64,000 nucleotides of DNA from assembly GCA_021372615.1 (NCBI GenBank), contig JAJFUB010000074.1:1-64000 (forward strand), read 5' to 3'. The notes below the pieces were generated by a model. It was given only the letters and a program-made list of their open reading frames with translations. It had not been told where the DNA came from and did not search any database. Each line of letters opens with the position of its first letter. Position 1 is the first letter of the stretch. The position numbers were made by a program, and so were the translations under genes. This DNA is from a bacterium (GTDB lineage Bacteria; Armatimonadota; Zipacnadia; Zipacnadales; UBA11051). Positions 4,603 through 61,864 of this stretch are shown here, piece after piece.

Positions 4603-5438
4603 TGTCTGGCGCAGCCCCTCGACCCGGTCTTCTGGCCGCACTCGTACTGTTGGCCTCCGGCTGCGTCGCCCAGCCTGGCCCACCGGTGCTGGCGCCGGGT
4701 CGCTGGTTCACCGTCACCTTCCCGGACCTGCCGCCCACGCTCTTCGACCTGCGCAACGAGCGGACCGACCCGGCGCAGATGACCGTCTTCCTGCCGCGCA
4801 ACTACGACCCTCAGCGCCAGCACCCGCTGCTCATCTTCCTCAATGGCGGTGACGGCGGCAACGCCGGCAACCCCGGCGTGGCGCGGGCGCTGACGGAGGA
4901 GCAGGACTTCATCTGCGTGGCCCTGCCGCTGTTCAAGATCAGTCTCGACCCGAACTCGCCGGTCAATAAGTCGCCGGTCATCATCGTTCGGGGCGCGGAT
5001 GGTCAGTACGGCTGGCCGTTCGTTCGGACCATGCTGACCAAGCTCGAACAGATCGTGCCCAACATGGACCCGGCCCATCGCATTCTCGGTGGTTTCTCCA
5101 ACGGCGCGCACGCGACCGCCGCGCTCATTGACGGGTCGGGCGGGGAAGTCACTCGCCTGTTCTCCGCGGTCATGTTCGGCGAGGGCGGGGGTGGGCTGCA
5201 GCACTATGAGCTGCTCAAGGGCAAGCCTTTCCTCATGATCTCCAGCAACGCCAAGTCCCTGCCACGCGCTCAGGAGATCACTGACGCGGCGAAGGCGGCT
5301 GGAGCGCAGACGACGCTCATCTTCGAGGACATCGGCCAGCACGGCTTCCCGCCGGCCGCGTACCCGAAGATCAGGGAGTGGCTGCGCGGACCGGCACTCG
5401 GAGGAGCCGCGAGGGAAGACAACGGAGGCGTCGAATGA
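4599..5438 (+). CDS. Secreted esterase-like alpha/beta hydrolase, paralog B
   Basis: The 279-residue protein is a tandem duplicate of the preceding gene. It has a short leader ending near GCVAQ, where the Cys could also form a weak lipobox (LLASGC), so a lipid anchor is possible here but not in paralog A. It keeps MTVFLPRNYD, the glycine-rich FLNGGDGGN loop, GGFSNGAH with the presumed nucleophile Ser, and a C-terminal GQHGFP with the candidate catalytic His. The ATG overlaps the previous stop (ATGATG context) and its own stop overlaps the next start by ATGA. Coupling to two secreted neighbours suggests joint action on one extracellular substrate. Confidence 0.65.
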   Translation: MMSGAAPRPGLLAALVLLASGCVAQPGPPVLAPGRWFTVTFPDLPPTLFDLRNERTDPAQMTVFLPRNYDPQRQHPLLIFLNGGDGGNAGNPGVARALTEEQDFICVALPLFKISLDPNSPVNKSPVIIVRGADGQYGWPFVRTMLTKLEQIVPNMDPAHRILGGFSNGAHATAALIDGSGGEVTRLFSAVMFGEGGGGLQHYELLKGKPFLMISSNAKSLPRAQEITDAAKAAGAQTTLIFEDIGQHGFPPAAYPKIREWLRGPALGGAAREDNGGVE

Positions 5439-6676
5439 CCTTAGCACGGATGGCTCTGTCGGCGCTATTGCTGCACGGTGGTCTCATCTCACTTGCGGAG
5501 GCGGTGCCTGTGGCCCAACTGACTCTCAAGAGCAGCGAACCCCTGAGTGCCTCGTCCAAGCTGATGCACGCCAGCTACCTCAAGGCCGAAGGCCCGGAGA
5601 TGGTGCGCCTGGGCGGTGTCTCGCCCGACAACGGCCGCACCTGGCACGACGTGCCGGTCACGCCCAACTTCGACCAGGACCTCCCGCAAGGCTACCGTCG
5701 CGAGAGCTTTCCGCTCTTCGTGGACCACACCAACGGGCGGATCGTCCGGCTGGTGCCCTCGATGGACACCGAGGGCCTCGACCCCACCATCGTCGAGCCG
5801 CCCATTGCCCTGCAGACGTACTACCTCCGCTACCGCGTGAGCCTCGACCAGGGCAAGACGTGGCTCTTCGATGACGTGGTCGTGCAGAACGGTCACACGC
5901 CGGTGAAGCCCTTCGAGGGCGTGGTTCGCGGCCGCAACGGCATCTTCATGGGCGATGTCGGCTCGCAGATCATCCGCACGCAGGCCGGCAAGATCATCAT
6001 CCCGGCGCAAGCGTGCCTGCTGGGCGAGGACGGCAAGCTGTCCAACCCCGGCGGCGGCTTCACCTACACCGATGTGGTGATGGTCATCGGCACCTGGCAG
6101 GAGGACGGCCACCTCACGTGGGAGATCAGCCGCGTTGAGGGCGACCCGGCGCGGACCACGCGCGGGGTCATTGAGCCCACCCTCGCGCAGTTCGACGACG
6201 GACGGATCCTGTGCGTCATGCGCGGGAGCAACGGGGGCAGCAAGGACCCGGACTGCAAGCTCCCCGGCACCCGCTGGTGGTGCATGTCGGCAGACGGCGG
6301 ATACCACTGGACGAAGCCGGAGCCGTGGACCTATGAGGATGGACAGCCGTTCTTCTCGCCCTCAAGCATGTCGCAACTGCTGCAGCACTCCAGCGGGCGC
6401 GTGTTCTGGATCGGGAACTTGTGCGCCACGAACCCACGGGCTAACGACCCGCGCCACCCGCTGGTGATCGGGCAGGTGGACCCGAAGACACTGGGTCTGA
6501 TCCGCCAGAGCGTGCTCGTCGTGGATGACAAGCAGCCGGAGGAGGCGGGGCTGAACCTGTCGCACTTCTGGGGGATAGAGGACCGCGAGACCGGCGACAT
6601 CGTCATCGCCGGGGCGCGCTACTCGCAGGGCTACAAGGAAACCCACCCGCACCTGTGGCGTATTGGTGTGAAGTAG
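5435..6676 (+). CDS. Exported BNR/Asp-box (sialidase-superfamily) protein
   Basis: The start chosen is ATG 5435, which overlaps the previous stop by ATGA and has GGAGG just upstream; it gives a 413-residue protein with a signal peptide (ALSALLLHGGLISLAEA). The body contains Asp-box motifs of six-bladed beta-propellers: SPDNGRTW (~68), SLDQGKTW (~140) and SADGGYHW (~287), plus EPTLAQFDDGRILCVMRG, which matches an active-site strand (E and R) of exo-alpha-sialidases. Such proteins are annotated as sialidase or exo-alpha-sialidase, but most uncharacterised ones act on other sugars. As last gene of the ceramidase-esterase run it suggests an operon that strips a complex glycolipid or glycan. Confidence 0.7.
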   Translation: MTLARMALSALLLHGGLISLAEAVPVAQLTLKSSEPLSASSKLMHASYLKAEGPEMVRLGGVSPDNGRTWHDVPVTPNFDQDLPQGYRRESFPLFVDHTNGRIVRLVPSMDTEGLDPTIVEPPIALQTYYLRYRVSLDQGKTWLFDDVVVQNGHTPVKPFEGVVRGRNGIFMGDVGSQIIRTQAGKIIIPAQACLLGEDGKLSNPGGGFTYTDVVMVIGTWQEDGHLTWEISRVEGDPARTTRGVIEPTLAQFDDGRILCVMRGSNGGSKDPDCKLPGTRWWCMSADGGYHWTKPEPWTYEDGQPFFSPSSMSQLLQHSSGRVFWIGNLCATNPRANDPRHPLVIGQVDPKTLGLIRQSVLVVDDKQPEEAGLNLSHFWGIEDRETGDIVIAGARYSQGYKETHPHLWRIGVK

Positions 6677-9694: not shown

Positions 9695-9754
9695 GTACGC
9701 CCGACACTCCTGTCGGGCGCGCAGGCTCTCGCCCGACAGGAGTGTCGGGCGTAC
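9695..9754. terminator. Perfect 25-bp inverted repeat between convergent genes (bidirectional terminator-like)
   Basis: Arm 9695-9719 is the exact reverse complement of 9730-9754, with a 10-nt loop. Each arm is itself a hairpin (9-bp stem CGCCCGACA with CTCC-type loop), so the element is two inverted copies of one hairpin. It starts 15 nt after the stop of the membrane protein and reaches the first base of the stop codon of the minus-strand beta-helix gene, so it can act on both convergent transcripts. Confidence 0.75.
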
Positions 9755-12700
9755 TACGGTCCCCGGTAGATCCGCACCTTGGCGAACACGCCCTCCGGCC
9801 CCCAGGTCCACAGCCCGGGGTGCCTGGGCGCGCCCGGGGCCGGGCCCTGGAAGTCCAGCGACAACTGGTCATCCACGATGAGCTGGGCATGGCCGTCGGC
9901 CAACACCTGCGCGATGACATGGTGCCACTTGCCCGGCGTCACCAGCGGCCGCGGGGACGTGAGGACCTCGGCCCCGTCCACCAGCAGCTTGTTGCAGGTG
10001 TTGCCATTGGAGCCGAAGCCAAAGAGATAGCCGCTGCCGTAGTTGGTCGGGTCGGTCAGCCAGAAGGGTGACAAGTCGCCGCCGGCGCCGCCGATGACGC
10101 GGGTGTCGTACTCGACCCGCACGGGCGCGGGCAGCTTCTCGGCATACGCCAGGAACGCCTTGTCGCCGCTCGACTGGACGAAGCCGTCGTGCGCGGTCCA
10201 CTTCCCCACTGCCTCGCGCCAGCGCCCCGACAGCGCCTGCCCGGTGAAGTCGTCCCCGTAGGCCAGTTGCCAGTTTGCGCCGGCGGGATACCTGATCTCC
10301 CCGGCCTGGGGCGCCGAGCGGGGCTTGGGGGTGGCGAAGGCTTCCCGGTTGGCGAACTGGTCGGCCGGTACGACGGCGACCGCAGCGGGGAAGCTCGCGC
10401 CCATGGGCGTCAACTCCGCCGTCAGGCGCCACTGGTTGGTGTTGGTGCACGTCTTGATCAGCAGCACGTTGTCGCCTGCCCGTAGCGTCAGCGGCACCCT
10501 ATCCTGGGCCGGGGCGGCGTTGCGGCTCTGGTTCGCCGACCAGACGTAGCCGCCGTTGAGCACGACAGTCAGCCCGCCCGAACTGCCCACTTGCAGCACC
10601 GCCGGGGTCTCGGTGGCGGCATTGAGGCAGGCCACGGCGTAGGCCACGCCGGGCTCCTTCGTCTTCAGCAGCGCCCCCAGGTCCAGCCATTCGTTGCCGA
10701 GCTTGACCGGCTGCCACTTCCGCCCGTCCACATCCGCGTGGATGTTCAGCGCGTCTTCGGGCGGGTAGAGCGTCAGGTCCAGCGGCTGGCCGGACTCGTT
10801 GGGGAAGGGCCCGACCACCAGCCAGTCCCTGATCTGGCCGCTGCCCACCGTGAGGGTCGGCGACAGCCACACCTGCGTGTGCGGGAGGATGACGCCGACA
10901 TGCAGGCACACCTGTCGGCGGCCCCATGTGCCGGGCGGCACCGTGACCGGCAGCGTCAGTGAGGCGCGGCCGTCCTGCAGCGCCGTGGCCGAGCCATCTC
11001 TCGCGCAGGTCAGCGGCTCCGCCACATGGGCGGCGATCTGCCAGCCCGGCTGCCAACGCGCCAGCGACAGGTCGAGCACCAGCGTCGCCTCGCCGCCCCC
11101 GCCCTTCTGCAGCAACGCCGGCAACGTGCTGACCTTGTTCACCTGCAGGCTGAAGCCCACCAGCCGCGCGGCGGTCGCATGCGGCAGCACCACACCCCGG
11201 TTGTCCGCCTCCCGGAAGAAGGCCGTCAGCACCCCCAGCGACGCCTCGCGCGTCGCGGCGGCCGGAGCCTGCTCCAGCGCCGTGAGGGTCTGCGCCACCT
11301 CGGGCCAGGTCGCCGGGTCGTCCGTACGCCCGGCCTCGCGGGCCGCAACGCGCAGGCGGGAGCGCTCGGCGGCGGCCCACTGCGCCCCGTCGCACAGCCC
11401 GCGCTCCAGCCCGTCGCCCGTCAGTGGATCGCGCACGTTCTCGACCGTGTTGCCACGCACGACGATCCCGCGGATGGCGCGATCGAGCCGCACTGCCTCC
11501 TCGGCGTCGCGGATCGTGTTGTCCTCGATGACCGCATCGCTGACGCTGGGTCTGTCGTTCCCACTGCCGCCGACGTGGATGCGGGCATTGTTGTCCAGGC
11601 GGTTGCCCCGCACGACGGAGCCGACGTTGTACGGCCAGGGCCAGTCGCGCGTCAGCGGCCAGCCATACAGGCCGATGACCGAGTCACCCGACAGGATCGC
11701 GTTGTTCGCCCCCGAACGATAGATGCTGCCCTCGGTGATGGCGTTGTCCACGTACTGACAGAACCACGAGGGTTGATGGCAGGGGTTCTTGTCGGGCGGC
11801 AGCGTGTAGCCGCCGTAAGGCTTCCCAATCCCCTGGTAGCCGCCCGCGCGGGCGCAGGTGTTGCCGGACACGATGTGCTCGGACGAGCTGCCGTAGAACT
11901 GGATGGCGATGCCCGCGTCGCTGAAGCTGTTGCCCGAGAGGATGTAGTGCCGCTGCAGCATGGTGATGCCGACGAGCGACGTGGCGTCGGGTGGCACGTC
12001 CCAGGGGCGATCCACCGTGACCGTGTCCCCCTCCACCTTCACGACGCGCCGCATCTGCGTCCAGCCCTTGCCGGAGAAGACGAAGACCGCGGCGTCGGCC
12101 CAGTTCCTGGCCCCCGGCTTGAGTGCCTCGGGCAGCGTCAGGGCCGTACCCTTGGCTCTGGCGATGGGGCCATAGTACAGCCCGCCGCCCGCGTCCGACG
12201 TCATGGCCTCGCGATCCCACCCGTGCATGAGCCGCAGCGTGTTGTGCGCGTAGTACACGTTCTGCGAGGCGCTGGAGCCGTCGAGGCAGTTCAGGCCCCC
12301 GCCGGTGGCCATCAGGTCCGCGCCGGTGATGGTGTTGTTCTCGAAGATCAGCCCGTCCGATCCGGAGAGGCAGTACCAGCCATGCCGGCCGTTGTACAGG
12401 GCGTTGCCCTGGACGACGCTGTTGCGGGCGCGGCTGAGGAACAGCGCCCGGCCGCTGCCGTACAGGTCGCAGTTCAGGATGCGGAGGTTGTCTCCGCCCA
12501 GGCGCACGCTGTCGCCGCCGGAGATGCGCGCCAGGTCGCGGTGCCGCAGGTCGGTCTCCTCGGCCGTGAGGTGGCCGCGATAGGCATCCACCCGCGTCCG
12601 CACGCAGGCCAGCTCGACGTTGCCGGCGTCGGGCTTGTCGCCCAGGTCGCCCACGATGATGTGCCGGGCCTTGGAGGCGTAGAGGGTCAGATTCGCGATG

Positions 12701-13581
12701 GCGAACGAGTTGGTGCCCTGGATCAGGGCCTCAGGCGGGTTGGTCATGTCGGGCCAGAACAGTGCGACCGACTCCAGCGGCTCGCCAAGCAGACGCACGA
12801 AGCGGGGGATCCTCAGCCCCGCCGTCACCTGATAGCGCCCACGCGGCAGCATCACGAACCCGCCGCCGTTGGCTCCGGCCTTGTCGAGGGCGGCCTGGAT
12901 GGCGGCGGTGTCATCGCGCGCGCCGGTGCCGTCGGCGCCGAAGTCGCGGACGCTGAAGCTGGCTATGGGCCAGGGCTTGCGCTCGGGGATGATGAGCGGG
13001 AGGGGCGCGCTCCAGCCCCTCGGCCCGCCATAGCCGCAGTGGTAGAAGGCCTCGTAATGGCCGGGCGGCAGCTTCGCCGGCACGGCGACCCGCGCCGCCC
13101 AGGTGTCGCCCCACTTGCCGAGGAAGAGCGAGACGCTCTTGGGCCCCCTCAGGAACACCTGTGCCTTCGGCCCGGCGAGGTTCTTGCCGAAGAGGCGGAG
13201 GACCTGCCCCGGCGACACGCCCTCGGTCTGCGCCCACCATAGCGTCGGCCGGTTGACGAGAACGGGAGTGTTGCCGACCAGCAGGCTGTAGAGACCCGGC
13301 TTCTGGTTGGGGGCGATGAGCACCTTGAGGCACTGGTCGGAGGCCTGGAGCACGGTCACGCCGGCGCCGTGCGGATACGAGCCGGCGACCGGCTGGCCGG
13401 GCGTGCTGGCGGGGCCGTCGCCCAGGCGGCACAACTCGACCTGGGGCTTCTCGCCGAAGCCGTCGCCGAACAGCATGACCGTGTCGCCCGGCTGCACGGG
13501 GTCCTGGACCTGCCACACCACCGGGGCGGCGTGGGCCAGGGCGGTGATGACGAGGGCGAGCAGCATCAGTGGCACTCTCAT
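9754..13581 (-). CDS. Giant secreted parallel beta-helix (pectate-lyase-3-like) protein, paralog 1
   Basis: Start at 13581 (MRVPLMLLALVITALAHA leader, GGAG 8 nt upstream) gives 1275 residues. Order: signal peptide; IPT/TIG-like beta-sandwich (~20-200, PVQPGDTVMLFGDGFG); pectate-lyase-3 opening FSVRDFGADGTGARDDT (~209-225) and right-handed beta-helix with repeated NNxI/xGN turns to ~720; alpha-rich linker; NEW3/NPCBM-like sandwich region; C-terminal concanavalin-like module (~1110-1275, WHHVIAQVLADGHAQLIVDD). It is secreted, probably binding and cutting or debranching a polysaccharide. The block GWDREAMTSDAGGG (~454-467) is kept in the two paralogs at 13698 and 42701 and may mark the active groove. 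It is the last gene of the minus-strand run that begins at 20527. Confidence 0.8.
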   Translation of the reverse strand: MRVPLMLLALVITALAHAAPVVWQVQDPVQPGDTVMLFGDGFGEKPQVELCRLGDGPASTPGQPVAGSYPHGAGVTVLQASDQCLKVLIAPNQKPGLYSLLVGNTPVLVNRPTLWWAQTEGVSPGQVLRLFGKNLAGPKAQVFLRGPKSVSLFLGKWGDTWAARVAVPAKLPPGHYEAFYHCGYGGPRGWSAPLPLIIPERKPWPIASFSVRDFGADGTGARDDTAAIQAALDKAGANGGGFVMLPRGRYQVTAGLRIPRFVRLLGEPLESVALFWPDMTNPPEALIQGTNSFAIANLTLYASKARHIIVGDLGDKPDAGNVELACVRTRVDAYRGHLTAEETDLRHRDLARISGGDSVRLGGDNLRILNCDLYGSGRALFLSRARNSVVQGNALYNGRHGWYCLSGSDGLIFENNTITGADLMATGGGLNCLDGSSASQNVYYAHNTLRLMHGWDREAMTSDAGGGLYYGPIARAKGTALTLPEALKPGARNWADAAVFVFSGKGWTQMRRVVKVEGDTVTVDRPWDVPPDATSLVGITMLQRHYILSGNSFSDAGIAIQFYGSSSEHIVSGNTCARAGGYQGIGKPYGGYTLPPDKNPCHQPSWFCQYVDNAITEGSIYRSGANNAILSGDSVIGLYGWPLTRDWPWPYNVGSVVRGNRLDNNARIHVGGSGNDRPSVSDAVIEDNTIRDAEEAVRLDRAIRGIVVRGNTVENVRDPLTGDGLERGLCDGAQWAAAERSRLRVAAREAGRTDDPATWPEVAQTLTALEQAPAAATREASLGVLTAFFREADNRGVVLPHATAARLVGFSLQVNKVSTLPALLQKGGGGEATLVLDLSLARWQPGWQIAAHVAEPLTCARDGSATALQDGRASLTLPVTVPPGTWGRRQVCLHVGVILPHTQVWLSPTLTVGSGQIRDWLVVGPFPNESGQPLDLTLYPPEDALNIHADVDGRKWQPVKLGNEWLDLGALLKTKEPGVAYAVACLNAATETPAVLQVGSSGGLTVVLNGGYVWSANQSRNAAPAQDRVPLTLRAGDNVLLIKTCTNTNQWRLTAELTPMGASFPAAVAVVPADQFANREAFATPKPRSAPQAGEIRYPAGANWQLAYGDDFTGQALSGRWREAVGKWTAHDGFVQSSGDKAFLAYAEKLPAPVRVEYDTRVIGGAGGDLSPFWLTDPTNYGSGYLFGFGSNGNTCNKLLVDGAEVLTSPRPLVTPGKWHHVIAQVLADGHAQLIVDDQLSLDFQGPAPGAPRHPGLWTWGPEGVFAKVRIYRGP

Positions 13582-13665
13582 TGGGTCAGCTCCGTGTTGG
13601 GCCATGGCAACAGCGTGTTCCGCCCCTTCGGGGTGCACGGCAACGGCTCCTCCCCACGGCCGCGC

Positions 13666-13693
13666 GTTCCCGATTGCCGATTCCCGATCCCCC
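13666..13693. repeat. G-rich heptad array (4 units) just after the paralog 2 stop codon
   Basis: Read on the plus strand, four 7-base units run in register: GTTCCCG, ATTGCCG, ATTCCCG, ATCCCCC. On the minus (RNA-sense) strand they start 4 nt after the stop codon of the gene ending at 13698 and present GGG tracts spaced as in potential G-quadruplexes. A second array with the same placement is at 22265-22306. Units resemble short tandem heptamers known from cyanobacteria; function unknown. Confidence 0.7.
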
Positions 13694-13697
13694 ACCC

Positions 13698-16460
13698 TCA
13701 CTTACCGGCCGCTACTTCCGCGTCTGTCAGCGCCCGGGTCCAGATGCGCACCTGGTCCATCAGGCCGATGAAGCAGCCCGGGCCGGCGGTGGTCGGCGGG
13801 TCGCCACCCCATGCTTCGCGCCCGATGATCAGCGGCTCCATGTTCTCCTGCCGGCCCAAAGGGTTCTGCTTCTCGGACACGAGCTTGCCGTCCACAAAGA
13901 CGCGGACGCCCTGGCCGGTCTTCATCACGACCGTGACGCGCGACCACTGGTTCTCCTTGAGGGTCGCCGGACCGCCGAAGTTGAGGCTCCACTTGCCCTG
14001 CTCGTCCGTGGCCTCAAAGCCTACGCTCGCGCCGGTCTGGTTGATGACGAAGGGGCAGCCGGCATTGCCGAAGCGCTTGGCGATCAGCCCCCGCCGGCCC
14101 TTGAGCGTGGCGGGCTTGATCCAGAAATCCACGGTCAGGTCGGGCGCGTTGAAGACCGCCGGCTCGTTGATCCGCAGGTAGCCCTTGCCGTCGAGCTGGA
14201 CGGCCTTGCCGGTCACGCCACCGTCTACGAGCTTCGCCCCGTCCTCGAGCCGGGCCGCGAAGTTGTTGCCCGAGGCATCGGGGGTGGTGTTGCCCGGCGC
14301 CTCCTCGAAGTTCAGCACGAGCACCGGGTCGGGCCGGTTGAGGTACTTGGCCAGCCGCGCCATGGCCGCCTGGCGCGCCGCCGGCTCATCCATCAGTTCG
14401 TGCGCCACGTTCGTGAACGTGTTGCCTTGTGCCAGCACGTTCTGGCAGCTCTGGCTCACGAAGATACCGGTGTCGCTGTTGGCCACCTGGTTCTGCGCGA
14501 CGAGTACATTGGCGCAACTGCCGGTGATCTTGATCTGGCTGTTGGCCTGCAGCTTGTTGCCCCGCACGACTGCACCGCGCGTCAGCGGCCCTTCGTACTC
14601 CGCGCGGCGCGCACCGTAGATGCTGATGACGCTGTCGCCGGCGGAGGTCCAGTGGTAGTAGTTCCCCTCGGCGATGGTGTTGCCCAGGAACTGGCAGTAC
14701 CAACTAGGCTGGAAGCCATGGTACCACAGGCCGAGAGCCTGGTAGCCCTGATTACGGGCAGCGGTGTTGCCGACGACATCACACTCGATGGAGGTGCCAT
14801 AGAACTGGAAGGCGCCGCAATCGGTGAAGCTGTTGCCCACAAAGGCATAGCGCCCGTGGAACATGGTGATGCCGAGGGTGGATGACTCATCGGGCGCGAC
14901 CTGCCAGGGCTGGTCCAGCGTCACATTCCGGCCTTCCCAGGCCTTGACCCAGCGCCACTGGCCGGCCCCCTTGCCGTCGAGGATGAAAACCCCGCCGTTG
15001 GTCCAGTCGCGCGCCCCCCACTTCGCGTCTGCGGCGAGGACCATCTGCGCGCCGGATGCCGAGGCGACCTTGCCGAAGTATGCCTCACCGCCGGCGTCGG
15101 TCGTCATCACCTCGCGGTCCCACCCGTGACAGAAGCGCATGTCATTGTAGGCGTAGTAGATGTTGCGGCTGCAGGCGGTGGAGTAGTTGGCGATGCCGCC
15201 GCCGGTGCTCATCAGGTCCGCGCCCTGCAGCGTGTTGTGCTCGAAGATCAGCCCGTCGCTGCCCTCCAGGCAATACCACCCCCAGCGGCCGTTGTAGAGC
15301 TGGTTGTTAGCGACCAGCGCATGCCGCGCGCGGGACAGGTACAGCGACCGACCGCTGCCGTACAGGTCGCAGTCGGTGATGGTCACGTTCTCCCCGCCGA
15401 CCCGCACTGTGTCGCCGCCGCCGGTGGACCACTTCAGCGACATGCGGAAGCGCTCGTCTACCTCCTCGGGCTTCAGGTGCCCGCGGTAGGCGTCACCGCG
15501 CACGCGCAGGCGCTGCAGCCACACGTTCCCGGCGCCCGGCTTGCTGCCCAGATCCCCGGTGATGATGTTGCGGTGGTTGCTGGCGTAGACGGTGAAGTCG
15601 GTGAGGGTGAAGGAGTTCGTGCCGAGGATGAGGTGCTCGGGCGGGTTGGCGAAGTCGGGCCAGAAGAGCGCCACCCACTCCCGCTTCTCGCCCGCGAGCC
15701 AGACCTTGGGCGGGATGCGCAGCGTGTCGCTGCACTGGTAGCGGCCACGCGGGAGGTGGACGACGCCCCCCTTCTCCCCCGCCTTGTCCAGCGCCGCCTG
15801 GATGGCCGCGGTGTCATCGCGCTGGCCGGTGCCGTCGGCGCCGAAGTCGCGCACGTTGAAGGACGGAGCGGGCACCATAGCCGGCACGGGCAGTTGCTTG
15901 ACGGTGAGGGTCACCGGGGCGCTCTCGGCATAGCCGTTGCTCACCGTGACCCGGCAGTCACCGGACATCGGCGGGCACACGAGACTGACCGAGTAGCCAT
16001 CCGACTTCGCCGCGACGGTCTGCGTGCGCTTGCCCGTGAAAGTGACGCTCGTCTTCTGCCCCGGCATGGCGAGGTTGCGGCCGAGCAGGCGCATCTCGCC
16101 GCCGCCACCCACCACTGCGCCGAAGGCCCCCCGCCACCACCAGATCGCCGGGCGGTTGAGGTCGCGGGTCGCCGTCCCGCCCGGGGTCTTGATGGCGAGG
16201 GTGAACAGGCCAGGCTTGAGCGTGGCGGGGATGACGCACTTGAGACCGGTGTCGGTGGCCTGGAGCGCCGGCACGGCGACACCCCTGGCGTCCCCCGCCC
16301 GTGTGATCGTCACAGTGGCCTGGTCGCCGAATCCCTCCCCGGCGACCAGCACGATCTCACCGGGCTGCACAGGGTCGCTGGCCCAGTAGATGGCCGGGGC
16401 CGCCGCGAGCGGCGCCAGGGCGCCCAGCAGCAGCAGTGCGGCGGTCAGAGGTCGCGCCAT
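13698..16460 (-). CDS. Secreted parallel beta-helix protein with LamG-like C-terminus, paralog 2
   Basis: The 920-residue protein starts with a signal peptide (PLTAALLLLGALAPLAAAP), then an IPT/TIG-like sandwich (PVQPGEIVLVAGEGFGD), a short second sandwich, the pectate-lyase-3 signature FNVRDFGADGTGQRDDT near residue 206, a beta-helix to ~680 and a LamG/concanavalin-like domain (~700-915: VLNFEEAPGN, LTVDFWIKPATLKG, VRVFVDGKLV, MDQVRIWTRALTDAEV). It shares with paralog 1 the blocks YNGRWGWYCLEGSDGLIFE, GWDREVMTTDAGG and the DCDLYGSGR turn, but its C-terminal module is of another type, so the helix core is the constant part. It lies 8 bp after the polyferredoxin gene and is surely cotranscribed with it. 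Probable polysaccharide lyase or hydrolase, substrate unknown. Confidence 0.8.
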   Translation of the reverse strand: MARPLTAALLLLGALAPLAAAPAIYWASDPVQPGEIVLVAGEGFGDQATVTITRAGDARGVAVPALQATDTGLKCVIPATLKPGLFTLAIKTPGGTATRDLNRPAIWWWRGAFGAVVGGGGEMRLLGRNLAMPGQKTSVTFTGKRTQTVAAKSDGYSVSLVCPPMSGDCRVTVSNGYAESAPVTLTVKQLPVPAMVPAPSFNVRDFGADGTGQRDDTAAIQAALDKAGEKGGVVHLPRGRYQCSDTLRIPPKVWLAGEKREWVALFWPDFANPPEHLILGTNSFTLTDFTVYASNHRNIITGDLGSKPGAGNVWLQRLRVRGDAYRGHLKPEEVDERFRMSLKWSTGGGDTVRVGGENVTITDCDLYGSGRSLYLSRARHALVANNQLYNGRWGWYCLEGSDGLIFEHNTLQGADLMSTGGGIANYSTACSRNIYYAYNDMRFCHGWDREVMTTDAGGEAYFGKVASASGAQMVLAADAKWGARDWTNGGVFILDGKGAGQWRWVKAWEGRNVTLDQPWQVAPDESSTLGITMFHGRYAFVGNSFTDCGAFQFYGTSIECDVVGNTAARNQGYQALGLWYHGFQPSWYCQFLGNTIAEGNYYHWTSAGDSVISIYGARRAEYEGPLTRGAVVRGNKLQANSQIKITGSCANVLVAQNQVANSDTGIFVSQSCQNVLAQGNTFTNVAHELMDEPAARQAAMARLAKYLNRPDPVLVLNFEEAPGNTTPDASGNNFAARLEDGAKLVDGGVTGKAVQLDGKGYLRINEPAVFNAPDLTVDFWIKPATLKGRRGLIAKRFGNAGCPFVINQTGASVGFEATDEQGKWSLNFGGPATLKENQWSRVTVVMKTGQGVRVFVDGKLVSEKQNPLGRQENMEPLIIGREAWGGDPPTTAGPGCFIGLMDQVRIWTRALTDAEVAAGK

Positions 16461-16468
16461 GGTCTAGT

Positions 16469-17605
16469 TCACTCCTCAGGCGGCGGGGTCACAGCGGCGT
16501 CGGGCCCGGGCTTGTGGTCGGGCGGGGGGCGCAGGCCCCACGCAATGGCGTTCACCGGGCACACGCGCACACACGCGCCGCAGGCAAAGCAGTCCTGGGG
16601 GAAGGGGCGGCGGGCGCGGAGGCCGGCAATGGCGTGGGTCGGGCAGGTGCGCTCGCAGGTCTTGCAGTCCACGCATGTGTTCAGATTGACCCGGGGGCGC
16701 CACAGGGAGATGCGCTCGCCGAACCATGACACCAGCCCGAAGGGGCAGAACAAGTTGCACCAGGGGCGGTAGAACCAGATGCCCGCTACGAGCACGACGA
16801 CAGCCACGACGACTGCAGCGACCGCGCCGAAGCGGAAGATGCGGAAGGGGTCCACGGGTTCGAGCAGATCGGTGGCGGAACTTACCGCCGCCATAGCCAT
16901 GGTGAGGAAAGCCGCGACGCGGATGCTGTTGGTCAACACGAAGGGGAGCTTGAGCTTGCGGGGCCGGTCGCGCCAGACGAGGTCTTGCGCCGCCCCGAAC
17001 TGGCAGGCCCAGCCACAGAACACCTTGTTGCCGATGATGCTCATCAGCATGAAGCCCACGAAGGCGATCAGACGCGGGAGGAAGAGGCGCCCCGTCTGAC
17101 CGTACAGCACCAGGGCGTCCTTGACGGTCCCTGGGGCATTCGGCTCAACCCCAAGCCACACGCCGAACACGAGGACGGACCCGGCTAACACCGCCTGGCG
17201 TGCCCGGCGGCTGACCTTCGTGCGCGCGAGCAGCACCATCACGGTGACGAACAGCACCCCCCAAAGCAGGAACTTCAGGCGGATCTTGCGCCAGTCCTTG
17301 CTTGCGGCCTCCCCGGCGACGGGGTCGAGGCGGCCGAGCGCGGCCTGCACGTCGGCCGGCTGCAGGCCGTGCTGGCGCAGGATCTGGCTCATCGGCTGGT
17401 TCAGGTCGGCCTCCGGCCCCAGGCCCAACTCCCGCGCCAGGGCCTCGGGGGCGACGTGCCGTGCCTGCGCGAAGTCGCGCAGCGACATGTTCAGCCCGGC
17501 GCCAGGCTGTGCGGGCGACCCGCCCCCAATCTCCTGGGCTATGGCGCTGGCGGCCACGAGTACGAGCAGAAGCGCTGGCAGCCACGTCCCGAATCGGAAC
17601 CTCAT
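16469..17605 (-). CDS. Membrane polyferredoxin, NapH/NosR-like 4Fe-4S protein
   Basis: The 378-residue protein has a signal-like N-terminus (residues 1-23), an extracytoplasmic helical segment (~38-95: SLRDFAQARHV, then ADLNQPMSQILRQHGLQ, two related halves), about five membrane helices, and four cysteine clusters. Two are membrane-loop motifs of the NapH type, CGWACQFG (usual Pro replaced by Gln) and CNLFCPFG; two are classic ferredoxin repeats, CVDCKTCERTCP and CFACGACVRVCP, binding two [4Fe-4S] clusters. Such proteins pass electrons between the quinol pool and periplasmic redox enzymes. The partner is not in the window. It sits between the carbohydrate-binding-like gene (35 bp) and beta-helix paralog 2 (8 bp), an unusual place for a redox protein. 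Confidence 0.85.
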   Translation of the reverse strand: MRFRFGTWLPALLLVLVAASAIAQEIGGGSPAQPGAGLNMSLRDFAQARHVAPEALARELGLGPEADLNQPMSQILRQHGLQPADVQAALGRLDPVAGEAASKDWRKIRLKFLLWGVLFVTVMVLLARTKVSRRARQAVLAGSVLVFGVWLGVEPNAPGTVKDALVLYGQTGRLFLPRLIAFVGFMLMSIIGNKVFCGWACQFGAAQDLVWRDRPRKLKLPFVLTNSIRVAAFLTMAMAAVSSATDLLEPVDPFRIFRFGAVAAVVVAVVVLVAGIWFYRPWCNLFCPFGLVSWFGERISLWRPRVNLNTCVDCKTCERTCPTHAIAGLRARRPFPQDCFACGACVRVCPVNAIAWGLRPPPDHKPGPDAAVTPPPEE

Positions 17606-17640
17606 GGCACATTCCCTCTTGGGGCACCCCCGGCGGCAAG

Positions 17641-18738
17641 CTACGGTGCGGTGGTGATCTCATCGAGCCAGAGCGTGTTGGCGGTCTCCTTCTGCCCGAA
17701 GGCGGCGGAGGCGTCCACGAACCCGAGCGAGCGGATCGTCTCGGGCTGGATCCCCTCGTCCGGGTCCTTCGTGTCCTCGGACAGCGTCATGTCCGCCCAG
17801 GTGATGACCGGCGTCTGCCACCGGCCCGGCGCCAATTCGATGACCTTCTGGTACCGCGAGCGGTCGTCTTCCTCCACCAGGAGCAGCAGGGGCAGGGCTG
17901 CGCCGCTGCGCACCGAGAAGGTGATCCCACGGGCGCCGGCCAGCGCCCCGGCCGCGACCTGGCGCAGTGCCGCCAGGAGGGTGCCCCGGGGCAGCGTGTA
18001 GTCGAGCCGGAGCGACTTGCCCCGCACCGCCGGGTCGTCGCAGGCCGCAGCCCGCAGATCGCGCCCACCAAAGACCATGAAGTAGCCGGGGTCGCCGTCG
18101 CAGTCCTCCAGCATGACCGTGCCCGCTGCCGCCGGCGCCGCCAGACGGTCTGGCTCACCCTCGAGTAGCTCGACTTCGTCCACCCAGAGGGTACGCTGGT
18201 TGGGGCGGGCATAGAAGAACGGCAGGTTGCCCTGGGCCAGGAAGACGCCGGGGTCGGCGAGGCCGATGAAGTTGACTTGCTCGGGGTCCAGCCGGCCGTT
18301 CTCATCCTGGCTGTGCTCGTCGAGGCGGAACTCGGTGAGGGGGAAGTCGAGGACGTGCCACTCGTCGGCGGTGAGGTAGGCAAAGAGGAGGTAGTTGGAC
18401 TCGTCGGTCTCGCGCAGGGCAAGGACCACAGGGCCGGCCACGGAGGTCTGCACGGCCAGGTGCAGACACCGTGCGCTGGTGAGGCCCTGCACCGGAACGC
18501 CCATGATCCCGGGTAGTTCACCGGGCTGGGCCGCGCGTGCCCCGAAGCTGAAGCGCAGGCTGGCGGCGCCCTCGTGGACGTGCCCGCCCTCCTTTTCCTG
18601 CACCAGCTCGGCCTGCTTGTCCAGCGACAGCCAGCCCTGGACGCCCTGCTCGAAGTCCCAGGCGGGCAGGTCGGCTGCCCGTGCCCCCGGCATCCCCCCC
18701 AGCAGCAACGTCATCACCAGGCAGATGCGAGATGTCAT
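17641..18738 (-). CDS. Exported protein with two carbohydrate-binding-like (CBM11/CIA30-type) domains
   Basis: ATG 18738 with GGAGG upstream gives 365 residues with a signal peptide (ICLVMTLLLGGMPGARA). The rest is two beta-sandwich repeats of ~170 residues. Each begins with an acidic WDFEQGVQGW or LEDCDGDPGYF motif, runs through a ligand-face region (GITFSVRSG; LHLAVQTSV), has an EWHVLDFPLTEF or RWQTPVITWADM strand, and ends LWVDEVEL or LWLDEIT. This is the pattern of galactose-binding-like CBM domains. No catalytic domain is seen, so it is probably a periplasmic or surface glycan binder for the operon 20527-9754. The family is assigned by pattern only. Confidence 0.6.
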   Translation of the reverse strand: MTSRICLVMTLLLGGMPGARAADLPAWDFEQGVQGWLSLDKQAELVQEKEGGHVHEGAASLRFSFGARAAQPGELPGIMGVPVQGLTSARCLHLAVQTSVAGPVVLALRETDESNYLLFAYLTADEWHVLDFPLTEFRLDEHSQDENGRLDPEQVNFIGLADPGVFLAQGNLPFFYARPNQRTLWVDEVELLEGEPDRLAAPAAAGTVMLEDCDGDPGYFMVFGGRDLRAAACDDPAVRGKSLRLDYTLPRGTLLAALRQVAAGALAGARGITFSVRSGAALPLLLLVEEDDRSRYQKVIELAPGRWQTPVITWADMTLSEDTKDPDEGIQPETIRSLGFVDASAAFGQKETANTLWLDEITTAP

Positions 18739-18763
18739 GGCAGCCTCCGGGACGGCCTTGCTC

Positions 18764-20527
18764 TCACTGCAGGCGCGCCATCTCCCCCTCGACGCGACGC
18801 ATGATCCCCGGCGCAAAGAGGGCGCCGCTGTCGGCATGGCGCTGCGCGAAGTCCACTAACTCCTGCGCCGCCACGATCGCGTCGTCAGCTAGCTTGGCTA
18901 TCTTCATTGCCTGATGCAGCGAGTCCTGCCAGCGCCCCAGCAGCAGGAGCAGTTGCGCCGACACCTGGGCCTGGGCGACAGCCTCGCGGTGGCGGGGCTC
19001 GGCGGATGCCGCGAGGGCCACGGCCCGCCCCAGGCAGTCCAGCGCCGGGCGCAGGAGCTGGTGCGTGGCGCGGCGGGTGTAGCCGAGGTCATAGTGGTGC
19101 ACACACCCGCCGCCCTGGCCGAAGCGTTCCTCCAGGCTGGTCCAGAAGGCCATCATCTCCCCGGCCGCCGGGCCGTAGAGGTCGGAGAAGTGCCCGTCCA
19201 GGGCCGCCTGGACATCGGCGTCCGCGTCCCACGACAGCTCGCCGATCAGGTGGGCATGTTGCCCGTATGGCCCCCACTCGGCGGGGCGGTACTCCAGCAC
19301 GTAGCCCTCGACGCCGAGGTCCCGGTAGAAGCGGAAGTCTTCGGGCAGCAGCCGGTACAGCGGGTAGGGCACCGAGACCATGTCTATGAGCATCAGGTAC
19401 TCGAACAAGAGTAGTTGCCCCGGCACCAGCGGGCGCCACTGCCGCAGCATCTCGGCGTACTGGACGTTGGGGCGGCGACAATCGGGGGCTCCCCCCAGGG
19501 GGTGCCGGAAGCAGCGCTGGAAGGGCGCGAAGTACACCTTCACCTGCGGCAGCACCTCCACCTGGCGCGGCGGCTCGACGTAGTTGACGTAGAACAGGGC
19601 GCTGAGGAACCCGTCGGGGTGGTCCTGCGCTACGAGTTCAGCCACCTGGTTGACGAACTGCAGGTAGGTGTCCGTGCGGCGCGGGTAGCCGGGCCACAGC
19701 CGCGACGGCTCCTGCGGCTCGAGGGCCAGGCAGCGCTCGCACTCGCACCACCCGTAGCCGTCGTTGGGCCACAGGCCCACGGTGTCAATCTCCGGGTGGG
19801 CGCTCATCAGGCGGCTGATGCGCTCGGCCACCAGCGCCACGACCTCCGGGCTGGAGGTGCAGAGCTGGCCGCGCGGGCTGCGCTCGCCCTGGATCAGGGC
19901 GAAGTACTCCGGGTGGGTGTCGAACAACTCGGAGGGGGGCATGAAGTACTTGCAGCTATGGTGCCCCAGCTCGATCTTCAGCCCGCGCGCGACGACCTCG
20001 CGCTGCAGCACCTGCTCGTACGCCTCAAAGGCGCCCTCGGCATTGGCGAAGATCATGAAGCGGTTGAAGCGCTGCTTGGCCATCCAGTCGCACATGGCGA
20101 CGGTGAGGCGATCGATGTCGGGGTAGTTGGTGAAGGCGCGCTGGGCGAAGTCGGGCCGGAAGCGCCGCTGCTCGCAGGGCACGCTGAGCGTCTCACGGCG
20201 GGGGATGATCTCCCCGTCCTCGAACTCCGCCAGCCAGCGGCAGCCGCAGTGCTCCTCCAGGAAGTGGTAGACGGCGTGCAGCACGCTCAGCGTGTCATGG
20301 CCGAAGAGCGTGAGGCCATCCGGACGGATGTCCCAGCCATGCTCCTCGGTGGGCGCGTCGTTGATCTGCAGGCTGACGGCGCGCTCGGGCCCCTCCCCGA
20401 GCGGAAAGTGCGCGCCGGTGACGATGGCGAGATACCGCGCTAGCTCATCGGCGGCAAAGGCCAACCGCGCATCGGCGGCGGCGACGGTGAGGTCAGTGGT
20501 GCTGTTGTTGGAGACGCAGAGACTCAT
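18764..20527 (-). CDS. DUF4838 domain protein, glycosidase-like
   Basis: The 587-residue protein (from ATG 20527) has an alpha-glucuronidase/GH20-type N-terminal domain (residues ~8-110: AADELARYLAIVTGA, LLHAVYHFLEE) and then the DUF4838 TIM-barrel-like region with GHHSCKYFMPP, YFALIQGERSPRGQLCTSSPEV, the hallmark DGYGWCECERCLALE (Cys-x-Cys-x-x-Cys) and YVEPPRQVEVLPQV. The C-terminal ~130 residues are helical. No signal peptide is seen, unlike the downstream genes. The catalytic activity of DUF4838 proteins is not settled; the context supports uronic acid or amino sugar removal. A GTG at 20539 would add four residues, but it lies inside the left arm of the 208-bp inverted-repeat element, so ATG 20527 is preferred. 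Confidence 0.75.
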   Translation of the reverse strand: MSLCVSNNSTTDLTVAAADARLAFAADELARYLAIVTGAHFPLGEGPERAVSLQINDAPTEEHGWDIRPDGLTLFGHDTLSVLHAVYHFLEEHCGCRWLAEFEDGEIIPRRETLSVPCEQRRFRPDFAQRAFTNYPDIDRLTVAMCDWMAKQRFNRFMIFANAEGAFEAYEQVLQREVVARGLKIELGHHSCKYFMPPSELFDTHPEYFALIQGERSPRGQLCTSSPEVVALVAERISRLMSAHPEIDTVGLWPNDGYGWCECERCLALEPQEPSRLWPGYPRRTDTYLQFVNQVAELVAQDHPDGFLSALFYVNYVEPPRQVEVLPQVKVYFAPFQRCFRHPLGGAPDCRRPNVQYAEMLRQWRPLVPGQLLLFEYLMLIDMVSVPYPLYRLLPEDFRFYRDLGVEGYVLEYRPAEWGPYGQHAHLIGELSWDADADVQAALDGHFSDLYGPAAGEMMAFWTSLEERFGQGGGCVHHYDLGYTRRATHQLLRPALDCLGRAVALAASAEPRHREAVAQAQVSAQLLLLLGRWQDSLHQAMKIAKLADDAIVAAQELVDFAQRHADSGALFAPGIMRRVEGEMARLQ

Positions 20528-20533
20528 ACGGAA

Positions 20534-20741
20534 ACCCACCCCCGGCCCTGCGGGCCGACCCCTCCCCAGGGGGGAGGGGTTACTCGGTCAGACAACGTTG
20601 TGGCTACCATGTCGGTCACGTAGGCACTCGCCGCCTTCAGCAGCCGCACGCACCCACCAGCCCTCGGGCAATCCCACCAACCGTCGCACCAGGAACCCCT
20701 CCCCCGTGGGGAGGGGTCGGCCCGCAGGGCCGGGGGTGGGT
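20534..20741. repeat. 208-bp element with 48-bp near-perfect terminal inverted repeats (MITE-like)
   Basis: Arm 20534-20581 and arm 20694-20741 are reverse complements over 48 nt with one mismatch, around a 112-nt centre without a gene. Each arm contains two smaller hairpins (GGCCC-GCA-GGGCC and CCCCTCCCC/GGGGAGGGG). The element fills nearly the whole gap between glmM and the DUF4838 gene, so the left arm supplies the 5' leader of the DUF4838 gene and the right arm lies 4 nt after the glmM stop. No target duplication is evident. Confidence 0.8.
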
Positions 20742-20745
20742 GCCG

Positions 20746-22104
20746 TTAGGCCAGCGTACCGTGCAACTCCTGCGCCAGCACCTCCGCCATCCGGTCCGCC
20801 AACTGCCCGATCTGCGTCTCGTCCTCGCCCTCGATCATGATGCGGGCCAGGGGCTCAGTGCCCGAGTAGCGCAGGATGATGCGTCCGCGGTCGCCCAACG
20901 TCTCCTCGACCTCGCCGAGGGCCTGGATGATGGCCGGGCAGTCCTCCAGCGGTGGCTTGGAGACCACGCGCAGGTTGCGCACGGCTTGCGGCAGCACCGT
21001 CAGCACCTGCGCCATCTGCGACAGGGGGCGGCCGTCATCGAGCATGGCCGCCAGCATGTGCAGGGCCGTGATGACGCCGTCGCCGGTATGGGCGAACTCG
21101 CTGAAGATCACGTGGCCGGCCTGCTCACCCCCCAGGGCCGCGCCCACCTCGCGCATCTTCTCCCACACGAAGCGGTCGCCGACGGGGCTACGCACCACGC
21201 GAATGCCGTGAGGCTGCAGCGACAGGTCCAGGCCCTTGTTCCCCAGCACGGTCGTGACGATCACATCGTCGGTGAGCCGCCCGAGCTGCTGCAGATACAG
21301 GCCGCAGATGGCCAGGATGTAGTCGCCGTCGAGCACGGTGCCGCGCTCGTCCACAAAGAGCGTGCGGTCGCCGTCGCCATCGTGGGCGAGGCCCACGTCG
21401 GCCAGGTGGGTCTTGACCGCCAGTTGCAGCGGCGCCAGGTGCGTTGAGCCGCACCCCTCGTTGATGTTCAGCCCGTCGGGCGTGCAATTGATGGCGAAGA
21501 CCTGAGCCCCGTATTCCTCCAGCAGCTGCGGGGTGATCTCGGACTGCGCGCCGTTCGCGCCGTCCACGACGATGGTCAGGCCGGAGAGGTCGAAGCCGGG
21601 CGGGGCGGCCTGGCGCACATGGGCCAGGTAGCGCTCCACCACATTGGTGCGCTCGACGACGCGGCCGATCGCGGCGCCGGTGGGGTGCAGGTCCTGGTGG
21701 CTGCGTTCGGCGTAGGCATGCTCGATCTCGCGCTCCAGCTCATCATCAATCTTCGTGCCGTCACGGTTGAAGAACTTGATGCCATTGTCGGCCACGGGGT
21801 TGTGTGAGGCGGAGATCATGACCCCCAGTTGCGCCGACAGCACGCCGGTGAGGTGCGAGATCGCCGGCGTCGGCACGATGCCCGCCCGGCAGACGGAGGT
21901 GCCCACGGCACACAGGCCGGCGACGAGTGCACATTCGAGCATGTCGCCCGACAGCCGGCCGTCGCGACCAATCAGCACCGTGTCGGCGCCGTAGCGCTGG
22001 AAGACATAGCCCGCCGCGCGGCCCAACTCGTACGCGACCTCGGGGGTCATCGGGGGCTCGTTCGCCCTGCCGCGCACACCGTCCGTGCCAAAAAGGCGCT
22101 GCAT
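20746..22104 (-). CDS. glmM: Phosphoglucosamine mutase
   Basis: The 452-residue protein converts glucosamine-6-phosphate to glucosamine-1-phosphate for UDP-GlcNAc synthesis (peptidoglycan, LPS). It starts with the GlmM signature RLFGTDGVRG, carries the phosphoserine loop MISASHNP (Ser100), the Mg-binding DGDGDR (Asp242/244/246), the sugar loop in CGSTHLAPLQ and the phosphate-binding RYSGTEP (~412-418). Length and motifs are those of a normal bacterial GlmM. ATG 22104 is chosen because it begins exactly at the family start and GGGAGG lies ~9 nt upstream; ATG 22110 and GTG 22113 are also possible. Its 3' end is 4 nt from an inverted-repeat arm. Confidence 0.95.
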   Translation of the reverse strand: MQRLFGTDGVRGRANEPPMTPEVAYELGRAAGYVFQRYGADTVLIGRDGRLSGDMLECALVAGLCAVGTSVCRAGIVPTPAISHLTGVLSAQLGVMISASHNPVADNGIKFFNRDGTKIDDELEREIEHAYAERSHQDLHPTGAAIGRVVERTNVVERYLAHVRQAAPPGFDLSGLTIVVDGANGAQSEITPQLLEEYGAQVFAINCTPDGLNINEGCGSTHLAPLQLAVKTHLADVGLAHDGDGDRTLFVDERGTVLDGDYILAICGLYLQQLGRLTDDVIVTTVLGNKGLDLSLQPHGIRVVRSPVGDRFVWEKMREVGAALGGEQAGHVIFSEFAHTGDGVITALHMLAAMLDDGRPLSQMAQVLTVLPQAVRNLRVVSKPPLEDCPAIIQALGEVEETLGDRGRIILRYSGTEPLARIMIEGEDETQIGQLADRMAEVLAQELHGTLA

Positions 22105-22136
22105 GTCCATCACCCTCCCCGGTTACCTGTCTGTTG

Positions 22137-22192
22137 CAGTAGGGCCGGCGGCTCGCCGGACTGCGCGCGGGCGAGACCGCCCGCGCTACTGG
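22137..22192. repeat. Double-hairpin intergenic repeat, copy 2 (diverged)
   Basis: The copy runs CAGTA to TACTGG upstream of glmM. The second hairpin is intact (GCGCGGGCG, loop AGAC, CGCCCGCGC); the first (GGGCCGGCG, loop GCT) has a mismatch near the stem base. It lies between glmM and the M14 gene on the minus strand and so would be in the glmM leader if these are cotranscribed. Confidence 0.7.
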
Positions 22193-22264
22193 AGGTGAGG
22201 GAGGCGCGGGGGATCGTGGGGCCCCGTCCGCCTTCGCGCTGCGCGCTCCGGCCAACACCCCACG

Positions 22265-22306
22265 ACTCCACCGTCTCCCGTCTCCCAACTCCCAACTCCT
22301 ACCCCC
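22265..22306. repeat. G-rich heptad array (about 5 units) at the M14 stop codon
   Basis: Plus-strand units are CGTCTCC twice, CAACTCC twice and TACCCCC, with a degenerate unit before them. The last unit covers the stop codon of the minus-strand M14 gene (22299-22301), so on the RNA-sense strand the array starts right at the end of translation and gives GGGGGG, GGG, GGG, GGG tracts with short spacers, a good G-quadruplex candidate. Confidence 0.75.
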
Positions 22307-23306
22307 CGAACGTCTCGGCATTCGCCTCCGCCCACAGGCCGTCGGCGCCTAGTTCGAGGAAGATCATCACGGCGCTCAGGTAGTCGTCAATGATCTCCCA
22401 CTCGGTCGGCAGGGGCATGAAGCTGGCGCTGCCCAGGTAGCCCTGCCGGCCCTCGAAGCTCATCCACCCCAGCTTCGCCTGCCGGTGGAAGAGGATGGAG
22501 TTGAAGAAGTAGCCGGGAGGCTCCGGCGGGTCGCCATCACCATAGAGGGGGCTCAGTTGCCGGCCTTTGTGGGCGAAGAGTCGCTCGGCGCGGGCGTGCC
22601 ATTCGCGCAGGATGGGCCAGTAGGGCGCCGGGTGGCTGCGGGCCTGCATGGCGAAGTTGTACCCGCAGGCGTGCAGGTCCAAGATGGCGTCCAGGTCCAG
22701 AGGCCGGACGAAATCGAGCAACTGCTGCACCTCGACCGCCTCGCTGAACTCGTCGGACAGGCGGCGGTTGATCGCCCAGCCGGCGGCGTTGAACTGCCCG
22801 CCCACGAAGAGCGCGTCCGCCGGATCGAAGTAGTAGCAGGGCTCGTCACTGTCGGCATCGTACGGCACGAGGTCGCCGCTGTGCTGCAGGCCCGAGGCGT
22901 AGACTTCGCACGTGTTGACGCCCTGGGCGTAGAAGCTGTCCAGGCACACCGCGCGGCCGTCGGGATTGAGCATCGGCATGATGTACAGGTGCACCTGGTC
23001 GAGTACGGACTCCAGGTCCGGGTGCTTCTCACCGGCGAGGTCCTGTCCGGTCTCGAGCAGGTGGATCAGGTTCATGCACGCGGCTACCGTGCCGGGCTCG
23101 TGGCCGTGTGTGCCGCCGATGACCAGCAACTTGCGCCGGCCGATGGCCGCCGAGTACTCGACGACGCGCAGCCGCCGCCCCTGCACGGACGCGCCGGCGG
23201 TGTGGACGACGCCGCGCGCGACGTTGTGGTCCAGATACGCCTCGACCCGGTCGAGGTTCGCCAGCCAGAAGTCGGGCAGGACAAGCTGCGGTATCTTGAT
23301 CTGCAT
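22299..23306 (-). CDS. M14-family zinc carboxypeptidase-like protein
   Basis: Start at ATG 23306 gives 335 residues; the frame is open further upstream, but that part is not conserved in type and lies over the non-coding region. The zinc ligands of M14 peptidases are visible: THGHEPG (His67, Glu70) and LDLHACGYNF (His212), with the substrate-binding NPDGR (~114-118) and NRRLSDEF. No signal peptide is seen, so the protein is cytoplasmic unless the start is wrong. Members remove C-terminal amino acids or act on gamma-glutamyl and cell-wall peptides; the short length and lack of a pro-region favour the bacterial succinylglutamate-desuccinylase/carboxypeptidase-like branch. Upstream of glmM, a link to envelope peptides is possible but unproven. 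Confidence 0.75.
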   Translation of the reverse strand: MQIKIPQLVLPDFWLANLDRVEAYLDHNVARGVVHTAGASVQGRRLRVVEYSAAIGRRKLLVIGGTHGHEPGTVAACMNLIHLLETGQDLAGEKHPDLESVLDQVHLYIMPMLNPDGRAVCLDSFYAQGVNTCEVYASGLQHSGDLVPYDADSDEPCYYFDPADALFVGGQFNAAGWAINRRLSDEFSEAVEVQQLLDFVRPLDLDAILDLHACGYNFAMQARSHPAPYWPILREWHARAERLFAHKGRQLSPLYGDGDPPEPPGYFFNSILFHRQAKLGWMSFEGRQGYLGSASFMPLPTEWEIIDDYLSAVMIFLELGADGLWAEANAETFGG

Positions 23307-61688: not shown

Positions 61689-61733
61689 TGTCTAGGCCAA
61701 CATCCACGCGAGAAGTGTGGTTCCGGAGACGGC

Positions 61734-61860
61734 GCGCGGGCGAAGCCGCCCGCGCTACTGGTGCTGCAACGCACGAGCCTGGCCGCCCGCGCTACTGACA
61801 TCGTGACGCACAGGATAGGCAACACGACGACCCCAGTAGGGCAGGCGGCCTCGCCTGCCC
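61734..61860. repeat. Cluster of hairpin-repeat units, copy 4 (rearranged)
   Basis: A full hairpin (GCGCGGGCG, loop AAGC, CGCCCGCGC, then TACTGG) at 61734-61761, a half unit at ~61782-61798 and an opposite hairpin (CAGTA, GGGCAGGCG, loop GCCT) at 61834-61860. The last one starts 5 nt after the stop of the minus-strand gene at 61865 and may end its transcript. Confidence 0.75.
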
Positions 61861-61864
61861 GACC

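Follow-up and report, generated by a model that had tools for sequence, protein, structure and literature searches.

G-rich heptad arrays placed after stop codons form a dispersed repeat class in an Armatimonadota genome

Known heptad repeats and the two arrays of the window

The closest described repeats are the quadruplex-forming heptads of Rehm et al. 2015 (PMC4692102): Xanthomonas has GGGAATC, and Nostoc has GGGGA(C/T)T. These repeats are intergenic and dispersed, with four G-tracts as the commonest number. On the sense strand they occur up to 50 bp past a stop codon; antisense copies stand upstream of ORFs. They lie nearer to their 5′ neighbour and form inverted pairs between convergent genes. 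The class is defined there as heptads of at least 14 bp with at least one GGGAATC, either perfect or of the form (GGGANTN)n. The oligonucleotide (GGGAATC)3GGG formed K+-dependent quadruplexes in vitro by CD, and most of the repeats were transcribed; the authors state that they could not identify a role in gene regulation. Of the Xcc repeats, 83% also occur in Xac, a much closer pair of genomes than the family members compared here.

A second seven-base repeat, TAACTGA, is described by MacGregor 2015 (PMC4679880) from Beggiatoaceae and some Cyanobacteria and Bacteroidetes. Like the arrays reported here, these are many-copy intergenic direct repeats next to gene boundaries; unlike them, they have no G-tracts, keep one fixed unit and lie mostly directly upstream of starts. 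A 2025 survey of 1566 bacterial genomes (PMC12563890) states that intergenic G4 motifs cluster near gene boundaries. A limited literature search returned no report of G-quadruplex or tandem/heptamer repeats for Armatimonadetes.

We analyzed a window of DNA that is the first 64 kb of contig 74 of a 6.41 Mb genome in 171 contigs. The original prediction was that two G-rich heptad arrays follow the stop codons of two unrelated minus-strand genes, with four G-tracts and short spacers. Both arrays are present in the sequence, at corrected coordinates. Array 1 (13669..13697, minus strand) consists of GGGTGGGGGATCGGGAATCGGCAATCGGG on the RNA strand and directly follows the TGA stop (13698..13700) of a gene for a beta-helix/pectate-lyase-like protein with a LamG domain (13698..16460, minus strand). 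The RNA strand reads TGA GGGTGGGGGATCGGGAATCGGCAATCGGGAACG, with G-runs of 3, 5, 3, and 3; one 7-base unit is broken (GGC), which leaves one spacer of 11 nt. By our gene calls the array sits in the intergenic region 13567..13697, which is bounded by the start, at 13566, of another minus-strand gene. Beta-helix-type paralogues occur in tandem and dispersed in the window (9754-13566, 13698-16460, and 42701-46582), with two more on the same contig.

Array 2 (22275..22306, minus strand; units GGAGTT, GGGAGTT, and GGGAGAC) overlaps the end of a gene of the M14 zinc carboxypeptidase family (22299..23306, minus strand), so the two genes are indeed unrelated. Here the RNA strand reads GGGGGG TAG GAGTTGGGAGTTGGGAGACGGGAGACGG. 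The last two codons of the gene form the first G-run, and the TAG stop (22299..22301) falls within the array, which thus starts in coding sequence. The intergenic region beyond (22111..22298) extends to a phosphoglucomutase/phosphomannomutase gene (20746-22110, minus strand). Near that gene, inverted copies of CACCCCCGGCCCTGCGGGCCGACCCCTCCCCA stand at both ends of one intergenic region (20539-20562 on the plus strand and 20713-20736 on the minus strand).

Each array has four G-runs of at least three bases, as predicted, but the spacers are not all short: one is of 11 nt in array 1, and the first is of 8 nt in array 2. With these loops both fail the strict G3+N1-7 quadruplex rule, and a reading of the window copies as good quadruplexes is not supported; both fit the quadruplex pattern once longer loops are allowed, and their G4Hunter-type scores are 1.62 (array 1) and 1.71 (array 2). 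Three TCCC motifs spaced by seven bases, with at most one mismatch, occur four times in the window, against 0.67 in shuffles, and three of the four lie within arrays 1 and 2. Rfam and tRNA scans of the window gave no matches.

Array 1 contains GGGAATC, with one unit broken, and falls within the definition of Rehm et al.; array 2 has no GGGAATC unit and falls outside it, yet is heptad-periodic and similarly placed. Homologues of the M14 gene with 60-68% identity (six loci) are all labelled Armatimonadetes or Candidatus Zipacnadia, so that, judged by this one gene, the source is most likely an uncultured member of the Armatimonadota. None of the six, all in other genomes, is followed by an array. 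For the LamG gene, the six other genomes of the family hold matches at the level of domains and no clear orthologue, and none of the three in-genome paralogues examined has an array after its stop. The arrays are therefore not conserved at these loci.

Placement, polarity, and G-tracts in the genome

The exact pattern TCCCN3TCCCN3TCCC has 113 placements in the 6.41 Mb genome, corresponding to about 48 loci among the matches listed (100 of 113). The units are mostly GGGAATC or GGGATTC, of the class GGGN4, and 37 of 48 arrays have at least four G3 tracts with loops of at most 7 nt, which passes the strict quadruplex rule. When the gap was allowed to vary, equal spacings of 7 and 8 bases were found 25 and 24 times among the matches listed (100 of 347), and spacings of 6, 9, 10, 11, and 12 bases 1, 2, 0, 3, and 1 times. 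Most of the 8-base class belongs to a distinct TCCCCTCA repeat, which is present at few loci. The reversed pattern is an unclean control for these searches because reversed heptads occur too.

Arrays of period 8, of the GGGATGAG type and related ones, are found at L210-L215; most of them follow a stop in sense orientation, and hairpins of the families seen beside the heptads often come next. Five of seven period-8 arrays are sense after a stop, at 3-44 nt, so that in these few cases the placement is like that of the heptads. At L042, two nearby genes (4997-5120 and 6395-6512) appear by eye to share a common end and a common array start, and the two arrays to differ at loop positions only, with GGG kept.

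For the analysis of placement we fetched 43 regions of the genome, chosen for holding arrays (from the first 100 of 113 placements), which biases counts and not positions. Genes were called with a purpose-built hexamer model (90% coding) rather than a published caller, and stops are more certain than starts. One region, with the array L061:8351, seems to contain tRNA genes; the gene calls carry no tRNA annotation. In the fetched regions and the window, 50 arrays were placed: 48 are intergenic, one is sense inside a gene, and one is antisense inside a gene. Placement was then counted for the 47 intergenic arrays with both neighbours known; array 1 and one array at the edge of a region are not in this set.

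Placement of the arrays after stops is a rule in this genome. The genome search for arrays at stops that the original prediction had proposed found 28 of the 47 that begin, in sense orientation, no more than 12 nt past a stop, with 4.0 expected and a maximum of 13 in 10,000 random placements within the same regions, which rules out chance placement. The distance from stop to array start is mostly 3-11 nt. In 43 of 47 arrays the nearer gene lies on the 5′ side of the G-strand (two-sided p = 3e-9), and with arrays defined instead as four GGG spaced by seven bases the count is 39 against 1, with one tie. The dispersion over many loci, the intergenic location, and the position within 50 bp after stops (most already within 12 nt) all agree with the description of the Xanthomonas and Nostoc repeats.

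The G-tracts vary less than the loops. A 24-mer search with up to three mismatches, in which all positions weigh alike, gave 39 matches at 22 places, and many of these matches contain GGGAATC. Taking one match per place (22), 6 of 54 differences are at G positions, against 27 expected, as G makes up half of the positions; the others are at loop positions 5 (31), 6 (11), 4 (5), and 7 (1). This pattern speaks for a constraint on the G-tracts, but part of it could also arise by homogenization between units, or because GGGATTC is simply another frequent unit.

Recurrence with other loops in the phylum

A GGGAATC probe (two and a half units, at most one mismatch) has matches in 4 of 61 genomes, namely this genome (27 matches) and three of the same order, and none in six other members of the family. 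Compared with the sharing reported for Xcc and Xac by Rehm et al., GGGAATC in Armatimonadota looks lineage-specific. Arrays of five GGGN4 units are present in all nine relatives chosen, which were selected partly for having matches to the earlier pattern or its reverse. Where arrays were listed, each lineage has loops of its own: G004, of the same family, has GGGRYGW-like units, G047 has GGGCTGA and GGGTCTA, G055 has GGGGATA and GGGTGTA, and G041 has GGGTTAA. Elsewhere in the phylum the class thus recurs with a different loop sequence. A CsrA-type reader of GGA is unlikely by reasoning, as GGA is not kept in the other lineages.

We fetched 20 regions from G004 (of 44 matches found), 20 from G047 (127), 12 from G055 (16), 3 from G041 (5), and 1 from G048 (4); two G048 arrays lie inside called genes and are left out of the tables. 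The G-strand 5′ end faces the nearer side in 14 against 6 arrays in G004, 25 against 14 in G047, 13 against 4 in G055, and 4 against 3 in G041, a weaker polarity than in the own genome. Boundaries were tabulated for five genomes, leaving out arrays at region edges and arrays with flanking distances that sum to more than 500 nt; p-values for this table are approximate because every array is counted twice, in a 5′ row and in a 3′ row, and because arrays that share an intergenic region depend on each other.

With the five genomes pooled, 49 of the 59 sense arrays that follow a stop lie no more than 25 nt from it, and 4 of the 56 antisense arrays do; in the other genomes alone the fractions are 24 of 32 and 2 of 39. 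Before starts the bias is the other way: among antisense arrays, for which the start is the 5′ neighbour of the G-strand, 20 of 44 lie no more than 25 nt from it, against 2 of 47 sense arrays in the five genomes (8 of 13 against 1 of 23 in the own genome, and 0 of 3 antisense in G004). This is the second site of the Rehm repeats, antisense upstream of ORFs. A reading of the arrays as a feature of stop codons only is therefore not supported; many, moreover, are pairs of a G-array and a C-array.

Sorted by gene arrangement in the five genomes, the 5′ side of the G-strand is nearer in 35 of 39 arrays between a stop and a start and in 19 of 20 between convergent genes (12 of 13 with the own genome left out). 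The counts of 22 of 35 between a start and a stop and 6 of 8 between divergent genes are not significant. Avoidance of ribosome-binding sites as the whole reason for the polarity is weakened, as polarity persists between convergent genes, where there is no such site.

Judged by sequence, the arrays are of the class of Rehm et al., a known kind that occurs here in a new phylum and with a sharper placement rule. They share with the Xanthomonas and Nostoc repeats the GGGAATC heptad, the dispersion, the placement, the nearer 5′ neighbour, and the convergent pairs. They differ in lying mostly 3-11 nt from the stop and in loops that change between genera of the phylum. Loop turnover, polarity kept between convergent genes, and frequent neighbouring hairpins are additions to what is described for the class.

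Hairpins, paired arms, and possible explanations

Dispersed hairpins often lie 3′ of the arrays on the G-strand. A REP-like one with a GTAG head stands downstream of array 2 (22163..22189, minus strand; ends judged by eye). GTAG-headed REP-like families (GTAGCGCGGGCGG and others) also occur in the window at 678-1010, 22111-22298, and 61689-61864, and in many intergenic regions of the own genome. Like the arrays, REP-type hairpins are dispersed, in the same intergenic regions, and several have the GTAG head; unlike the arrays, they are not tandem heptads and occur without arrays too. Of the 10 intergenic regions in which the CGCGTGGGCGCGCGTG hairpin family was found, five have a G-array 5′ of the hairpin, in both gene orientations, and five have no array. 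Its orientation relative to the array is fixed in the four readable cases; the fifth reads on both strands.

The far end of the region carries a C-rich partner array in 12 of 18 cases in G055, 14 of 32 in G047, 8 of 37 in the own genome, and 0 of 17 in G004. Two arms from one region resemble each other more than arms from different regions do in G047 (p = 0.002, 8 pairs) and in G055 (p = 0.013, 7 pairs); for the own genome this does not hold (p = 0.26, 4 pairs). L177 is a near-perfect palindrome, and L194, L195, L068, and L064 also have paired arms, while L186 pairs arms of unrelated units. In the 12 nt that follow the array on its 3′ side, 13 of 41 own-genome arrays have the motif ACGGC, against 2.3% of background 12-mers, and these arrays have different loop types.

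From the placement rule, which holds in this genome and the others, a 3′-end role can fairly be inferred. On this reading the window arrays either belong to a dispersed GGGN4 class of G-rich tandem repeats or are decayed forms of it, and arrays of this class may grow by repeat slippage in intergenic DNA. They would be kept where the G-rich strand is the sense strand directly after a stop, often followed by a GC-rich hairpin. At the 3′ end of the transcript the G-tracts may form a quadruplex or some other stacked structure beside the hairpin, which could slow 3′-to-5′ decay or help RNA polymerase to stop. What is kept would be the G-tracts and their spacing, with drift of the loop bases. A quadruplex at the mRNA 3′ end is plausible, and the explanation as a whole, a G-repeat class kept sense after stops that may form a quadruplex at the RNA 3′ end, we hold to be evenly balanced between right and wrong. 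As a mechanism, the quadruplex reading of the 3′ end leads, although we consider it somewhat less likely than not. Against the whole explanation stand the failure of both window arrays under the strict rule, the absence of arrays at the M14 homologues and LamG paralogues, the regulatory role that Rehm et al. looked for and could not identify, and the merely mild G excess after stops of genes without arrays, which shows that most genes do without; against the 3′-end role stand the antisense arrays before starts, which such a role does not explain.

A neutral or selfish repeat with built-in polarity is a close rival to the quadruplex reading of the 3′ end and, taken by itself, a somewhat doubtful but real possibility. 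It would be prone to slippage or carried by an element, spread in intergenic DNA, and be merely tolerated outside genes, with a polarity that comes from its manufacture (G-rich arm left, core hairpin, C-rich arm right) and not from an RNA function. The lineage-specific copies of the GGGAATC probe and the empty M14 and LamG loci fit such a repeat. So do the C-array partners on the far side (though G004 has none), the better arm matching within regions of G047 and G055 (though not of the own genome), and ACGGC, which stands 3′ of arrays as though the right end were defined. It needs a separate reason for the tight start 3-11 nt after stops, for the low variation of G positions, and for the polarity that unrelated loops share in several lineages.

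The palindrome L177 and the other paired arms, the arm matching in G047 and G055, and the hairpins adjoining arrays would also suit a cruciform or hairpin, in which a G-array and a C-rich stretch of one region pair as the stem of an ordinary REP-like or terminator-like inverted repeat and no quadruplex is needed. We consider this unlikely: few own-genome regions and none in G004 have a C-array partner, the arms of L186 are of unrelated units, and an inverted repeat alone does not predict G rather than C on the left. A by-product of composition, with sense strands G-rich after stops and the arrays as the extreme of this bias plus slippage, is more improbable still, as GGG exceeds CCC only mildly in the 30 nt after stops of genes without arrays (294 against 188, or 1.6 to 1), which is too small for the array placement given the sense and antisense fractions at stops, and as array positions exceed all random placements within regions.

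A far more speculative proposal is that unrelated bacterial lineages repeatedly re-invent a punctuation in which GGG returns with a period of seven bases and the G-strand points away from the gene, each lineage with loops of its own, through a general process or an RNA code rather than one inherited repeat. A process that extends the 3′ ends of broken intergenic DNA by G-rich repeats would fit, and a general RNA 3′-end quadruplex code would fit as the alternative. In paired arrays a G-repeat is followed by a C-repeat, as where two telomeres are fused; telomere-like healing is meant here as an analogy of orientation only.

With these arrays, a repeat class that is little understood and was described in two groups of bacteria extends to the Armatimonadota, in which GGG, spacing, and polarity stay while the loop bases turn over between lineages. 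The class bears on the question of whether quadruplexes may serve as marks of bacterial mRNA 3′ ends, or whether a process that generates repeats may be at work.
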